This document shows, piece by piece, positions 14,998 to 21,385 of a stretch of 43,683 bases of DNA (the first letter of the stretch is position 1; the number at the start of each line of letters is the position of its first letter). This stretch comes from an uncultured Acidobacteriaceae bacterium (GTDB lineage: Bacteria; Acidobacteriota; Terriglobia; Terriglobales; Acidobacteriaceae). The notes below the pieces were generated by a model. It was not told the origin of the DNA, ran no database searches, and saw only the letters and a program-made list of their open reading frames with translations. Where the stretch lies: contig CAIVDV010000072.1 in the NCBI GenBank assembly GCA_903904755.1, forward strand, positions 1 through 43,683. Direction: 5' to 3'. The position numbers and the translations under genes are program-made.

Positions 14998-17900
14998 CTA
15001 GTGGAAGTCGTGCGAGGGGATGGGCAGGAAGGCCACTTCCAGCGGGGCGACGGACCGCGCTTTGACGTGGATGACGCCGTCCTGATTCTGCACCGGCCCG
15101 TGGATGCGCAGGAAACGCGTGCGGGTGACGACGGTGCGGTTGGCCTCGAAGGTGTCGGGGTCAAGGATGACGTTGGCGATGCCGGTTTCGTCTTCCACAG
15201 AGAGGAAGACGAAGCCCTTGGCGGTGCCGGGGCGCTGGCGTGCGATGACACATCCGGCAATGGTGACCAGTTGCCGGGTGCGGCAGTGGAGCAGGTCGGC
15301 GGCGGAGAGGATGCCCTGGCTGCGGAGTATTTCGCGCTGATAGGCCATGGGATGCGGGCCGGTGGTGAGGCCGGTGCCACTGAAATCTGCCGACAGGCGC
15401 TCCTCGGTGGTCATGGATTTGAGCTGAGATTTGTGACTGGATTCGGGTTGTGATTTGCGATGGGCCGGCTCGTCTGCGTCGGCTTCCCGCATGTGCTGCA
15501 GCAGCGGGCCCACCGGGCGGCCGGCACGCTCCACCTGCCACAGGGCATCCCGGCGGTCCGCAACGCCGTCCAGCGGGTTGAGCGCGCCGATGGTGGCCAG
15601 GGTGACGAGCTCGCGGCGGTTGATGCCGGGGATGCGCTGCACAAATTCGTCAATGGACGCGGGGATGGCGTGGGTGCTGCGGCGGGCGAGGATCTGCTCG
15701 GCGGTGGACTGGCGCAGGCCCTTGGCGTAGTTGAAGCCGATGCGCAGGGAGAGCGAGCCGTCGGGCTCCGATTCAAGCGTGCAGAGCCACTGCGAGCGAT
15801 GAATGTGGATCGGGCGGACGCGGAGACCGTGGCGCTGCGCGTCCTTGATGAGCACGGCGGGGGAGTAGAAGCCCATGGGCTGGTTGTTGAGCAGGCCGCA
15901 GGTAAAGGCGGCCAGGAAGTGGACCTTGAGGTAGGCCGAGGCATAGGCGATGAGGGCGAAGCTGGCAGCGTGGCTCTCCGGGAAGCCGTACATGGCAAAG
16001 GACGAGATGCTGTGGACGATGTTGTCCTGAGCTTCAGGAGTGATGCCATTGCGGGTCATGCCGCTGCGCAGGCGGCCTTCCAGGTCTTTCATGCGCTGCA
16101 TGGAGCGGCGCATGCCAACGGCGCGGCGGAGTTCCTCGGCCTCGGCACCGCTGAAGTCGGCAACCGTCATGGCCATGCGGAGAAGCTGCTCCTGAAAGAG
16201 GGGTACGCCGAGGGTGCGCTTGAGGACGGGTTCAAGCGAGGGGTGGGGGTAGGTGACCTCCTCCTTGCCCTGGCGACGGCGCATATAGGGGTGCATCATT
16301 TTGCCCACGATTGGGCCTGGGCGGATGATGGCCACCTGGACGACCAGGTCGTAGAAGCGGGTGGGCGCGTTGTGCGGGATGGAGGCCATCTGGGCGCGGC
16401 TTTCCACCTGGAACATGCCCACAGTGTCCGCCTTCCGCAGGGTTTCGTAGACCTGCGGGTCTTCCGGCAGGGTGGCCAGGTCGAGCTGGCGGTTGTAGTG
16501 GCGGGGGATGATCTCGATGGAGTCCTTGAGGACGGCCATCATGCCGAGGCCGAGGAGATCGACCTTGATGAGTCCGAGGTCGGCGCAGTCTTCCTTGTCC
16601 CACTGGATGACGGTGCGGCCTGGCATGGAGGCGGGCTCGATGGGGACGACGCGATTCAACATACCGGCGCAGATGACCATGCCGCCGGAGTGTTGGCCTA
16701 GGTGGCGGGGGAGGCTCTGCATGCGCATGCAGAGGTCGAGGTAGCGGGCGATGCGGGGGTGGCGGATATCAAAGCCGGCCTGGGCGAAGTGGTGGGCCAT
16801 GGTGTCGTTTTCGCCGCGCCACTCCCAGTGGCCGACGAGGGTGGAGAGGCGGGCGATCTGCTCGTCCTCAAAGCCGAGCGCCTTGCCGACCTCGCGCGCG
16901 GCAGAGCGGCCGCGGTAGGTGATGACGTTGGCGGTCATGGCTGCACCGAGGGAGCCGTAGCGCTGGTAGACGTACTGGATGACCTGCTCGCGCTGGTCGC
17001 CGGAGGGCAGGTCGAGGTCGATGTCGGGCCATTCACCGCGATTTTCGTTCAAAAATCGCTCAAACAGCAGCTCCATGCCGACTGGGTCAACGGCGGTGAT
17101 TTCAAGGGCGTAGCAGACTGCGGAGTTGGCCGCCGAGCCGCGGCCCTGGACGAGGATGCCCTGGCGGCGGCAGTAGCCGATGAGGTCCCAGACGATGAGG
17201 AAGTAGCCGGCAAAGCCGAGTTTTGCGATGAGCTTGAGCTCGTGGGCGACCTGTGCGCGGGCCTTGTCGAGCAGGTGGCGCTTGGCCGGGGAGCCATAGC
17301 GTTTGGTGACGCCCTCTTCGGTGCGGCGGGCGAGGAAGCTGTCCATGGTTTCGCCGTGGGGCACGGGGTACTCGGGAAAGCGGTAGCCGAGGTCGCGCAG
17401 GGAGAAGTCGAGGCGGTCGCTGACGATGCGGGTGTTGGCGATGGCCTCAGGAATATCGCGGAAGAGGGTGGCCATTTGCCGGGCAGAGCGCAGGGCGCGG
17501 GCGGTGTTGGCGTTGAGCAGGCGTCCGGCGCGGTCGAGCGAAGTGTGATGGCGGATGGTGGTGAGCACATCCATGATTTCGCGGTCGTGGTCGAGGGCGT
17601 AGGTGACGCCGTTGGTGGCGACGATAGGCAGTTGCAGGGAGTCAGCGAGCGAGAGCAGAGCCTGGTTGCGGACCTCCTCGTCGCGCTGGTGGTGGCGCTG
17701 GAGCTCCAGGTAGAGATTGCCGCGGCCGTAAAGCGAGGCGAGGCGGTCGATGAGGCTGTGTGCGGCGGGTTGGCCACCCTGGTTGAGCGCGGCAGCGACG
17801 GGCCCCTCGCTGCCGCCGGTGAGGCAGAGGAGCCCGGAGGAGAATTCCTCGAGATCGGCGAGGGTGGCTGCGCCCTCGGCTTTGTGGCCTTCGCGCATCT

Positions 17901-18252
17901 TGATGCGGGTGATGAGCTGACAGAGGTTCTGGTAGCCGGTTTGGGTGGCGCACAGCAGCAGCAGGCGGGAGGGCTCCTGGGGGACGCTGTGCGGGAGCCA
18001 TGCGGATGGGGTGAGCCTGCCGGGCAGGTCGGCGACGGCGACTTCTGCCCCGACGTGGCCGCGGATGCCGGCGCGAACGGCGGCGGTGTGGAAGCGCGCA
18101 GAGCCGTAGAATCCATTGCGGTCAGCCAAGGCGATGGCGGGCATGCCGAGTTCTGCGGCGCGCTCGGCGAGGGCCTCGGGCTGGGAGCCTGCTGCGAGAA
18201 AGCTGAAGGCGCTGGAGGCGTGCAGCTCGACATAGTCTGCCGCGTCAGTCAT
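14998..18252 (-). CDS. dnaE2: Error-prone DNA polymerase III alpha subunit, ImuC/DnaE2
   Basis: This 1084-residue C-family polymerase is the catalytic part of the ImuABC mutasome, which copies past damaged bases and causes damage-induced mutation. It opens with a PHP domain of DnaE2 type ([13 protein letters not shown], lacking the second His of the metal-binding H-x-H seen in intact PHP domains). The palm follows with GRGSAANS (about 370-377) and the catalytic [14 protein letters not shown] (PDIDLD at 409-414). A C-terminal OB domain is present ([19 protein letters not shown]). ATG18252 overlaps the imuB stop by 8 nt, giving tight coupling. An upstream extension of 30 codons would lie inside imuB and was rejected. 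The ImuA-ImuB partners precede it, so the ImuC role is well supported. Confidence 0.96.
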
Positions 18253-19744
18253 AGAAGGCTTCCAGATGCCAGGCGCGCGTCTGGCGGTCTTCCACGAGGA
18301 GGCATGCGAGGGATTCTCCGCTGGTGGCCTGGGCCAGGACATCCCACTCGGCCAGGTCCCAGCCCTCGGCAGCCCACCATGCGCCGCTGGTCTTCCAGGG
18401 GCCGTAGGCGGCGGAGATGGCGTAGGTGTGCTGGCGGTCGCGGAAGGCGGTGGGCTTTTCCGCCTGAACCGTGACGCGGACGGGGATGGGGGGCCTCATG
18501 CGGCGCAGGGCCAGATGGGTGCGCCGGCTGGAGGCATTGGAGGGCTTTTGTGGGGTGGCTGAGACGGCGAAGGGGGCAAGGTGGAAGCTGCCGGGGCGGT
18601 GGGTATCTTCGAGTACGGGGGAGCCGACGCGGTCTTCTCCGGCGATGGCCTTGAGGCGGGCGAGGGTGACGTCAAGCCGCGAGGGCTCAGGGGTTTGCGG
18701 CGCGAAAAGGCCAAGCTGGACCTTGCTGGACTGGCCGGCTTCCGCACGCAGGGTGATCCGCTGAACCGCGGCGCTGGGGGGATTGGCGGCCAGTTGCAGT
18801 TGCAGCAGCTTGAGGAGAAACTTGCGGTCGATACTGGGGATGGCGGGGGCGATGACGCGGCGGCAGACCGCGCCTTTTTCCAGCTCCATGTGCAGGATGA
18901 GCCGGGCCAGCGAGAAGGCGCGGGCCGAGGCACGGGCAACCAGTGAATCGATCATCCGCGCGCCGAGGAAGAGCAGGGAATCGAGGTCGGCGACGGGGGT
19001 CTCGAACTCGAAGAACTCCTGAAGCTGGAAGGCGGGCTCGACGGGCTGGAAGCTGTGGGGCGCGGTGCCGAGAGCAAGCTGATGCCAGAGCAGGGCTCGC
19101 TGGCCGAGCCGTGCGATGAGCTCGTCCTGGGGCAGCGCGGCCAACTCGCCAAGGGTGTGGATGCCCCAGTTGGCGAAGGTCTGGGCGTCGTCGGCAGGGA
19201 GGTTGAGCGCAGCGAGAGGCAACTGCGCGAGGGTTGGGGCTTCCTGCCCGGTGGGAATGAGGGTGATGCCGCGCGTGGCGGCGGCGAGGATGCGGGCGGT
19301 GTGGAAGCTGGCGCTGATGGCGATGGAGGCGCGGAAACCGAGGGTGGTGAGGGCCTTGCTGAGGCGCTGGGCGAGTGCGTCGGGCGGGCCGAAGAGGCGT
19401 TCGGTGCCGGTGATGTCGAGCATGAGGGTGGAGCTGGTGGTGGTGCCGAGATTTTCAATCCGGGGGGAAAAGCGGGCGGCGGCCTCAAAGAGGACGTTGT
19501 GCGCGGCGGACTCGATTTGAGGGTTGCGGGCGAGCAGTTTGAGGCCGGGGATGCTTTCCGCTTCGAGGCGGGTCATGCCGAGTGCTGCACCGAGGCGGCG
19601 GGCAGGCCGGTTGAGCGAGCAGAGGGCTTCGAGAGGCGCGCGGCCTTCCATGACGGCGACAGGCTGGGCACGCAGCGTGGGTTGCAGGCGCAGCAGCGCC
19701 TGGGCGGGGAACTCGGCGAGATGGAGGCAGGCGTACAGAGTCAT
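18245..19744 (-). CDS. imuB: ImuB, Y-family polymerase-like mutasome scaffold
   Basis: This 499-residue protein has the Y-family polymerase fold but lacks key catalytic acids: the first motif reads YACLHLAEF where active enzymes have D-x-D, while LDITGTERLFG (109-118) is the remaining palm motif. ImuB is known to be catalytically dead and to link the beta clamp to ImuC. A clamp-binding motif QLGLF is visible at 343-347, just where ImuB proteins carry it. Its start overlaps the imuA stop as ATGA and its end overlaps imuC by 8 nt, so the three genes form one translationally coupled unit. Confidence 0.93.
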   Translation of the reverse strand: MTLYACLHLAEFPAQALLRLQPTLRAQPVAVMEGRAPLEALCSLNRPARRLGAALGMTRLEAESIPGLKLLARNPQIESAAHNVLFEAAARFSPRIENLGTTTSSTLMLDITGTERLFGPPDALAQRLSKALTTLGFRASIAISASFHTARILAAATRGITLIPTGQEAPTLAQLPLAALNLPADDAQTFANWGIHTLGELAALPQDELIARLGQRALLWHQLALGTAPHSFQPVEPAFQLQEFFEFETPVADLDSLLFLGARMIDSLVARASARAFSLARLILHMELEKGAVCRRVIAPAIPSIDRKFLLKLLQLQLAANPPSAAVQRITLRAEAGQSSKVQLGLFAPQTPEPSRLDVTLARLKAIAGEDRVGSPVLEDTHRPGSFHLAPFAVSATPQKPSNASSRRTHLALRRMRPPIPVRVTVQAEKPTAFRDRQHTYAISAAYGPWKTSGAWWAAEGWDLAEWDVLAQATSGESLACLLVEDRQTRAWHLEAFYD

Positions 19745-20562
19745 GCGCGTTTCTCGGTCGCTGGTGCGGTGCTGATGTCCCAGGTGCAGTTAGCCGACCA
19801 GGTCGAGGCCGGTGGCTTGCGGATGGGGGTTGGTGCCGGGGCGAAGCGCTGGCGGCCACGTTCTGCGTGGAATTCGAGGCTGGTGAGGACGGTCTGGTGA
19901 GCGGCTTTGCCGGCGGCGCGGGCACGCAGGGGGGCGCAATCCAGCACCAGCGCGGCGCTGGACTGCGCGTAGCTGTCACGGCCCAGGACGAGCAGGGAGG
20001 TGCGGGCGTGGTCGGCAGCCTGGCGAAAGCGGAACCAGGTGGCCAGCGGGATGCGCATGGCGCTGGCTGGGTCAATGGAGCCGAGGTCGAGGACGATGGC
20101 GGCAAATCCGCCGGCCTGGAGGAGGAGGTCGGCGGAGCGGAGAGCCTGGTCAAGCTGGGAGAGGGCGCTGGTGGCGGCCATTGGGGTGCCTGGCTTGCTG
20201 GGCTGGGGCTTTGCGGCGGGTGTTCCGCAGCGCACCCAGAGGAGCCGCCGCAGATCAACCCCGTTGGCAGCAGCCGACTCGGGGTCGAGGGCGTCGCCGG
20301 CATCGACCCAGGCGCAGACCTGGGCGTCCTGGGTTCGCCGGGCGAGGAAGGAGAGGGCGAGCGAGGTGCGTCCGGAGGACTCCTGCCCGGAAATTTCGCT
20401 GATGGCACCAACGGGCAGGCCACCATCGAGCAGGGAGTCAAGCACAGGTATGCCGGTGGAGGCGGTCTCGTAAATGGTTCGGGCAGAGGGGGTTAAGGCC
20501 GCCGGGAAGCGGTGCTGAAGCGAGCGTTCGAGGGTGATGCGGAGAGCGGCAGCGGTGCCCAT
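19741..20562 (-). CDS. imuA: ImuA, RecA-like mutasome accessory protein
   Basis: This 273-residue protein has a RecA-like core: TGIPVLDSLLDGGLPVGAIS, a Walker A-like GQESSGRT at 59-66, and a Walker B-like AAIVLDLG. ImuA works with ImuB and ImuC in damage-induced mutagenesis and regulates RecA. The Walker A lysine is replaced by Arg65, which would weaken ATP binding or hydrolysis. The C-terminal part is Ala/Arg-rich and degenerate, as usual in ImuA. The ATG at 20562 has no strong ribosome site; a TATATA sits 4 nt before it on the minus strand. It is first in the imuABC unit and diverges from the SRAP gene across a 97-nt gap. Confidence 0.88.
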   Translation of the reverse strand: MGTAAALRITLERSLQHRFPAALTPSARTIYETASTGIPVLDSLLDGGLPVGAISEISGQESSGRTSLALSFLARRTQDAQVCAWVDAGDALDPESAAANGVDLRRLLWVRCGTPAAKPQPSKPGTPMAATSALSQLDQALRSADLLLQAGGFAAIVLDLGSIDPASAMRIPLATWFRFRQAADHARTSLLVLGRDSYAQSSAALVLDCAPLRARAAGKAAHQTVLTSLEFHAERGRQRFAPAPTPIRKPPASTWSANCTWDISTAPATEKRA

Positions 20563-20572
20563 GCGGTATATA

Positions 20573-20603
20573 TTCGCCTTTTCTTCGCCTATCTTCGCTC
20601 GAA
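20573..20603. promoter_or_regulatory. TTCGC direct-repeat array between imuABC and SRAP
   Basis: TTCGC occurs at 20573-20577, 20584-20588 and 20594-20598, spaced 11 and 10 nt (one helical turn), and the last copy opens a small palindrome TTCGCTCGAA (20594-20603). The array begins 11 nt before the imuA start on the minus strand. It is a candidate operator for a damage-response regulator shared by both divergent genes. It does not match the E. coli or Bacillus LexA consensus. Confidence 0.4.
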
Positions 20604-20644
20604 ATCCGTGCTTTGTAAAGAGCTTTCGTGTGTGGGAAATCCGC

Positions 20645-20650
20645 TATTCT
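20645..20650 (+). promoter_or_regulatory. Candidate -10 (TATTCT) of the SRAP gene
   Basis: TATTCT ends 9 nt before the SRAP ATG, and no Shine-Dalgarno lies between. This suggests a leaderless or near-leaderless transcript. No clear -35 is visible. Confidence 0.35.
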
Positions 20651-20659
20651 GGTGCCACC

Positions 20660-21385
20660 ATGTGTGGACGCTTTGCCCGGAAATCGACGCAGGAAGTGCT
20701 GGCAGCCTGGTTTGACCTGGAGGCCGAAGAGATGCCGTGGTTTGCGCCCACTTACAACGCCGCGCCGCAGAGCTTTCAGCCGGTGGTGCGGCTGAACCGT
20801 GACACGGGCGGGCGCGAGGTGGCGATGCAGCGCTGGGGGCTGGTGCCCTTCTGGGCGCGGGATGCGAAGATTGGGCTGAACACCATCAATGCCCGGGCTG
20901 AGGAAGCACCCGCGAAGCCGGCCTTTCGCGATGCCTTCAAAAAGCGCCGGTGCCTGATTCCAGCCGACGCGTTTTATGAGTGGCAGCGACCGGATGCGAA
21001 GACGCGGCACCCGTTTGCGATTGGGCTGAAGAGCGGGGAGCCGGTGGCCTTTGCCGGGCTGTGGGAGCGCTGGGAGCCTGCGGATGCAGCGGCGCAGGGG
21101 CCGCTGGAGAGCTTCACGATTCTGACCACGGACCCGAACGAGCTGATGGCACCGATTCACAACCGGATGCCGGTGATTGTGGAGCCGAAGGATTACGCGC
21201 GTTGGCTGGATTCCGGCAACGCTGCTGCGGGGGATGCGGCCAGGCCGCCAGTGGATTTGCTGCGGCCCTTCCCGGCAGAGAAGATGCGGGCCTGGGCGGT
21301 GAGTGACCGGGTGGGGAACGTGCGCAACAACGATGCGGCTCTGCTGGAGCCGGACGCGCCACCGCAGGGCTCGCTCTTCGGATAG
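20660..21385 (+). CDS. SRAP-domain abasic-site DNA-protein crosslink protein (YedK/HMCES family)
   Basis: This 241-residue SRAP protein covalently traps abasic sites in single-stranded DNA at forks. After Met removal Cys2 (MCGRF) forms a thiazolidine with the sugar. The other active residues are visible: Asn in LNTINARAE (about 74-77), Glu107 in FYEW, and His167 in IHNRMP. The extreme C-terminus is PPQGSLFG, and QGSLF (236-240) resembles a beta-clamp-binding pentapeptide; human HMCES ends with a PCNA-binding box. The start at 20660 is fixed because Cys must follow Met. It diverges from imuABC, and both would act at stalled forks, so shared damage control is likely (inference). The next gene downstream is unrelated. 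Confidence 0.95.
   Translation: MCGRFARKSTQEVLAAWFDLEAEEMPWFAPTYNAAPQSFQPVVRLNRDTGGREVAMQRWGLVPFWARDAKIGLNTINARAEEAPAKPAFRDAFKKRRCLIPADAFYEWQRPDAKTRHPFAIGLKSGEPVAFAGLWERWEPADAAAQGPLESFTILTTDPNELMAPIHNRMPVIVEPKDYARWLDSGNAAAGDAARPPVDLLRPFPAEKMRAWAVSDRVGNVRNNDAALLEPDAPPQGSLFG

Follow-up and report, generated by a model that had tools for sequence, protein, structure and literature searches.

Introduction

In the SOS response, RecA stimulates the cleavage of the repressor LexA. An SOS-regulated imuA-imuB-dnaE2 operon was reportedly described in Caulobacter by Galhardo et al. in 2005, and for Acidobacterium capsulatum a LexA box was published by Mazon et al. in 2006, reportedly with GTTC-N7-GTTC as the motif. 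Here we analyze a window of 43,683 nucleotides (nt), the whole stretch of DNA under study, from the 4.22-Mb, 83-contig genome of an uncultured Acidobacteriaceae bacterium; in this window three overlapping minus-strand genes (imuA, imuB and dnaE2) face a gene encoding a SRAP protein across a 97-nt gap that contains TTCGC repeats, two of which form a predicted LexA operator. The locus resembles the Caulobacter operon in the SOS control, predicted here, of the same three genes; it differs in the box and in having SRAP transcribed divergently across the operator.

The direct-repeat LexA box of Alphaproteobacteria is given as GTTC-N7-GTTC in a passage of PMC8565304. Like GTTC-N7-GTTC, the box in our window is a direct repeat built on a TTC core with a period of 11 bp; however, the conserved half-site here is TTCGC, preceded by A in one copy and by C in the other (ATTCGC and CTTCGC). 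Passages of a study of the LexA regulon of Balneolaeota (PMC7739468) report a direct-repeat LexA box together with a 'predicted SOS peptidase'; both boxes are direct repeats, but their sequences differ. The association of SRAP with the imu genes has also been described: neighborhoods in which SRAP adjoins two or more of imuA, imuB and dnaE2, as it does here, are found in Aravind et al. (2013; PMC3765255), whose methods also sought shared bidirectional promoters. However, the main text of that paper contains no word beginning 'acidobacteria', and its passages on these neighborhoods do not discuss whether imuA and SRAP have an operator in common. A passage of PMC12926913 mentions SRAP-like proteins as putative PolY partners.

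Results

A conserved TTCGC pair upstream of imuA

The gap between imuA and SRAP (20563–20659) contains TTCGC at 20573, 20584 and 20594, that is, with start-to-start distances of 11 and then 10 nt, exactly as an earlier note on this DNA had described. The first two copies form a TTCGC-N6-TTCGC pair with a period of 11 that occurs once in the window when both strands are searched. When the gap was dinucleotide-shuffled 20,000 times, the pair arose 20 times, three copies of TTCGC on either strand arose 207 times, and the triple with its spacing never arose. The pentamer itself is not enriched across the window (131 matches, with 127.8 expected), so we rejected the description of TTCGC as a simple enriched repeat.

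The nine imuA-SRAP gaps that we compared all contain the pair; it is exact in seven of them and carries a single mismatch in L197 and L064. Of the array whose conservation the earlier note proposed to test, the first two copies are kept and the third is not, and for this reason we also rejected the three-unit array as a functional unit. The sequence TTCGCTCGAA, which the same note had called a palindrome, is an imperfect one (TTCG-CT-CGAA, with 4-nt arms and two unpaired bases), and comparison of the nine gaps shows no conservation of it.

We then scanned imuA loci of the phylum, using 450 nt upstream of imuA and its first 60 nt. Of 140 confirmed loci we took the best 80 and dropped the four with less than 300 nt of upstream sequence; the related named loci are titled Acidobacteria, many of them Acidobacteriaceae. 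The exact pair is located upstream of imuA in 69 of the remaining 76 loci, and in all 69 it is read on the strand opposite to imuA (none on the same strand). Both the presence and the orientation of the box are the same at imuA loci where no SRAP was found nearby, and they are therefore explained by imuA; the box belongs first to imuA.

The same pair upstream of lexA, other genes and, in part, recA

The genome under study has one match to an S24 peptidase above the Pfam cut-off, a second below it, and a single match to its own LexA protein, which scores 192.7 bits against TIGR00498 (cut-off 111). Its lexA promoter contains TTCGCCTTTCATTCGC immediately upstream of a TATAAT hexamer, 12 nt ahead of the ATG. 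We collected 60 lexA places from 58 genomes, our own included, counting split hits of one gene as one place and leaving out a weak fragment (G046:C111, E 2.3e-4). The exact pair is upstream of lexA in 47 of the 60 (30/30 in a first set that includes our own and 17/30 in a further set), and 8 of the other 13 carry a one-base variant. Several of the lexA promoters have TTGACA and a TATAAT-like hexamer on either side of the pair, which fills the interval between the two, a natural position for a repressor. The TATAAT-like hexamer of some lexA genes (L032:1233-1263 and several of L067–L083) stops six nt short of the ATG, and their mRNA may therefore be leaderless. The second LexA copies found in two genomes (L155 in G006 and L152 in G057) are 33% and 44% identical, have no TTC-N8-TTC repeat upstream, and may read another box.

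For recA, we examined 30 relatives in addition to our own genome, with the relatives' recA places inferred only from RecA-core matches of ImuA. The exact pair is present in 12 relatives, and 11 have the first half followed by TTC, that is, a degenerate second half; one of these (L165) also has an exact pair about 320 nt further upstream that appears unrelated and was left uncounted.

By hand count, the genome contains 31 TTCGC-N6-TTCGC sites; the five that we selected by hand for a spacer starting with YTT precede the dinB-like gene, lexA, imuA/SRAP, uvrB and alkB. For three others (on C78, at C59:7696 and on C60), no downstream repair gene was recognized by eye, and no family search was made. 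Nine sites lie within one mismatch of TTCGCYTTTNNTTCGC, compared with three for a reversed control. In the sampled genomes of the family, TTCGCYTTTNNTTCGC is present in 30 of 31, with 89 sites and 6 for the reversed control (hand sums). The raw count of TTCGC-N5/6-TTCGC in our own genome (50 vs 21 for the reversed control) was rejected as a measure of enrichment because a single repeat that contains TTCGCCGCTCCTTCGC is present in eight copies and raises the figure. These copies are on contigs C13, C14, C25, C32, C54, C62, C64 and C65 (G000; e.g., L010, L017, L018 and L031); several are within 100 nt of a contig end, and the repeat is probably an element that breaks the assembly.

The pair, with the consensus TTCGC-YTTTYN-TTCGC (a direct repeat with an 11-bp period), is very probably the SOS box of this Acidobacteriota lineage, as predicted from its placement. 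A G precedes both TTC cores in only 1 of 47 lexA sites and in none of the 69 imuA and 12 recA sites, so these sites do not generally read GTTC-N7-GTTC; one site (L129) fits both descriptions. TTCGC-N6-TTCGC may include the published A. capsulatum box as a special case.

SRAP genes beside imuA

We searched the 80 imuA loci (each up to about 11 kb) for SRAP with the SRAP of the window as the query (E 1e-5; distant SRAPs may be missed). SRAP is present in 11 loci; in seven of these (L193, L196, L197, L200, L209, L258 and L265) it is divergent and within 150 nt of imuA, and the intervening pair is exact in six and has one mismatch in the seventh. The gene pairing, on whose conservation in related genomes the earlier note had made its idea depend, recurs there as a minority arrangement.

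Conversely, we examined 30 SRAP loci with, where the contig allowed, about 1.5 kb fetched on each side; one (L043) has no upstream sequence, and among the remaining 29, SRAP adjoins imuA in 3, is within or behind imu genes in 3, and has neither context in 23. The exact pair is upstream of SRAP only in our own locus and in G022, both beside imuA; in L064, where SRAP is likewise next to imuA, the pair has one mismatch, and the exact pair is absent from the three SRAPs inside or after imu genes.

The phylogenetic tree of SRAP includes nine imuA-adjacent proteins, that is, those of the seven named loci, our own and that of G013; it omits L037, whose contig equals that of L200 in length and which was taken as the same locus, and L098, taken as the same locus as L204, and it keeps L197, a 63-residue fragment. 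The imuA-adjacent SRAPs do not form one clade (a joint grouping is rejected by the approximately unbiased test, p 2.2e-6), and adjacency to imuA requires at least four changes of state on the tree, with gain and loss not distinguishable. Elsewhere in the order SRAP is located between imuB and dnaE2 (L055 and L056) or after dnaE2 (L061). Any match to SRAP is found in 34 of 61 relatives, with at most a few per genome. The interrupted SRAPs of L197 and L258 look as if they were decaying next to imuA.

Genes and gene products of the locus

The features of the locus are collected in Table 1; its coordinates and the Pfam assignments bear out the description in the earlier note of three overlapping minus-strand genes facing SRAP across 97 nt.

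Table 1. Features of the imuA-SRAP locus, with positions in the window.
Feature	Positions	Strand	Evidence
dnaE2 (imuC), error-prone DNA polymerase III alpha	14998..18342	-	Pfam; NCBIfam NF004225, 1201 bits (cut-off 939)
imuB, Y-family polymerase homologue, two of three catalytic carboxylates missing	18245..19744	-	Pfam IMS; alignment with the DinB-like protein of the same genome
imuA, RecA-like accessory protein	19741..20562	-	Pfam RecA; NCBIfam ImuA_translesion, below its cut-off
Predicted LexA operator (SOS box), TTCGC-CTTTTC-TTCGC	20573..20588	+	Conserved pair; shuffles
Third TTCGC, period 10, possible extra half-site	20594..20598	+	Nine imuA-SRAP gaps compared; not conserved
SRAP (HMCES/YedK family)	ATG 20660..21385	+	Pfam PF02586, E 1.6e-69

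The match of DnaE2 to NF004225, which exceeds the cut-off, identifies it confidently as an error-prone polymerase. Because the homology begins near residue 34, Met31 (18252) is a likelier start than that of the called reading frame; with this start the overlap with imuB would shrink from the called 98 nt to 8 nt, so the true overlap is probably smaller than 98 nt. In ImuB, LHLAE and MLDIT align to VDLNS and SIDEM of the DinB-like protein, which contain the residues that we take to be the catalytic carboxylates; judged from this alignment, ImuB belongs to the Y family but has lost its active site. The match of ImuA to ImuA_translesion (E 1.5e-11, 44.5 bits) is below the 150-bit cut-off; its RecA-like core and the gene order fit the assignment. 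The ImuA proteins of five relatives (L108, L109, L110, L111 and L112) align to the ImuA of the window in two blocks that are separated by additional sequence.

The SRAP of the window is the single match in its genome. Passages of PMC9436759 on YedK name Cys2, Asn, Glu and His as active-site residues. Cys2 is present in our protein, and the Asn, Glu and His in its NTIN, FYEW and IHNR motifs align with those of HMCES; with the domain and these residues in place, the protein is a member of the HMCES/YedK family, for which covalent capture of abasic sites is predicted from the family.

Discussion

We consider it likely that the TTCGC pair at 20573–20588 is the LexA operator of this lineage, repressing imuABC until DNA is damaged, with SRAP probably sharing the control. 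The identities of the genes and the presence, position and conservation of the box are computed results; LexA binding, induction by damage and any effect on SRAP are what we infer from them. The assignment to LexA follows from the occurrence of the pair before lexA itself, imuA, the dinB-like gene, uvrB, alkB and, in part, recA, and so favors the damage-response operator that the earlier note had proposed. LexA bound to the pair would repress imuA-imuB-dnaE2; after DNA damage, RecA filaments would provoke the self-cleavage of LexA, and the operon would be expressed. Since transcription of SRAP starts out from the same 97-nt gap in the other direction, SRAP would probably share this control, and the abasic-site capping protein would appear together with the lesion-bypass polymerase; from its position, we lean toward SRAP being under the control of LexA together with imuABC.

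Several observations weigh against parts of this reading. The box is missing from 5 of the 60 lexA places (two second LexA copies, one place cut by a contig end and two distant LexAs) and from the recA regions of 7 of the 30 relatives. The comparison with lexA and recA that the earlier note suggested has a divided outcome in our own genome: lexA carries the exact pair, but the recA site (TTCGCTTTTTCTTCTAG) has a degenerate second half (TTCGC-N6-TTCTa or TTCTC), as in 11 of 13 relatives of the same genus examined; the remaining two lack a site. Among the nine near-matches to TTCGCYTTTNNTTCGC in our genome, four (L188, L189, L191 and L012) are not ahead of a recognized repair gene; that of L189 precedes a GlnD-like gene, and the frames searched at L188 and L191 gave no Pfam match. 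Outside the family, the sample of the phylum comprises 266 genomes; TTCGCYTTTNNTTCGC is found in 48, with 66 sites compared with 34 for the reversed control (hand sums), that is, about twice as many; thus, the reach of the box beyond the family and its near relatives appears less clear-cut. A scan of the 97-nt gap found no sigma-70-like promoter for either imuA or SRAP. The remaining points concern SRAP: no adjacent SRAP was found in 73 of the 80 imuA loci; the exact pair is present in none of the 23 SRAP genes without an imu gene in the fetched flank; the distance from the box to the start of SRAP is 71 nt; the frame of SRAP is interrupted by in-frame stops at L197:4722-4910 and L258:138-635, although errors in the drafts are possible; and the orientation of the box, identical at imuA loci without SRAP, had to be rejected as evidence for control of SRAP.

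These last points invite the explanation that the operator serves imuABC alone and that SRAP, which would lie across the gap by happenstance, is transcribed from its own promoter closer to its start codon; we regard this as a serious possibility although we do not favor it. The constant orientation of the box at imuA with or without SRAP and its absence from SRAP genes away from the imu genes are what it predicts, and a TATTCT hexamer that recurs 9 nt ahead of the SRAP ATG (L193, L200 and the window) would be compatible with a promoter of SRAP's own. However, happenstance accounts poorly for the presence of SRAP in 11 of 80 imuA loci, where chance would give less than 1% per locus (a rough estimate, not a computed control), or for adjacent SRAPs that do not form one clade and SRAPs that are inside imu operons elsewhere in the order. 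The earlier note's single operator for bypass and SRAP is therefore plausible from position, but the box is imuA's own.

That the box is bound by a damage-response regulator other than LexA is improbable. In its favor, the box, predicted here from sequence, is lacking upstream of the second LexA copy in two genomes and of two distant LexAs; however, the pair is in the promoter of lexA itself at most of the lexA places examined, often between the -35- and -10-like hexamers, and also precedes classic SOS genes. An origin of the array by chance, with which the unremarkable frequency of the pentamer in the window and the appearance of three copies in about one in a hundred shuffled gaps would agree, has a negligible probability: the N6 pair is far rarer in the shuffles, and its conservation upstream of imuA refutes chance for the pair, although the third TTCGC alone may be a chance occurrence.

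We entertain a broader proposal for this part of the Acidobacteriota, and do so tentatively: SRAPs of several lineages may have been placed repeatedly across the LexA operator of imuA, so that a single switch would govern both the capping of abasic sites and mutagenic bypass, and the true box of the group may be TTCGC-N6-TTCGC, with the published A. capsulatum box a special case. The suggestion in the earlier note that the pairing and the operator type might be undescribed was mostly mistaken: SRAP beside ImuA-ImuB-DnaE2 is in the literature introduced above, and a LexA box of A. capsulatum reportedly dates from 2006. TTCGC as a LexA box was not found in the literature that we searched, which largely lacked subscription papers, so this is weak evidence of novelty. 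The arrangement is ordinary in kind and built from known parts; it is a useful refinement of the box.

The analysis provides a sharp, testable predicted SOS box for a large and little-studied phylum, with a predicted core regulon here of lexA, imuABC, the dinB-like gene, uvrB, alkB and, in part, recA. The human relative of SRAP, HMCES, is reported in the abstract of PMC9436759 to inhibit mutagenic translesion synthesis. If SRAP is co-induced with imuABC, the locus would be a compact bacterial test of the balance between capping abasic sites and copying past them.

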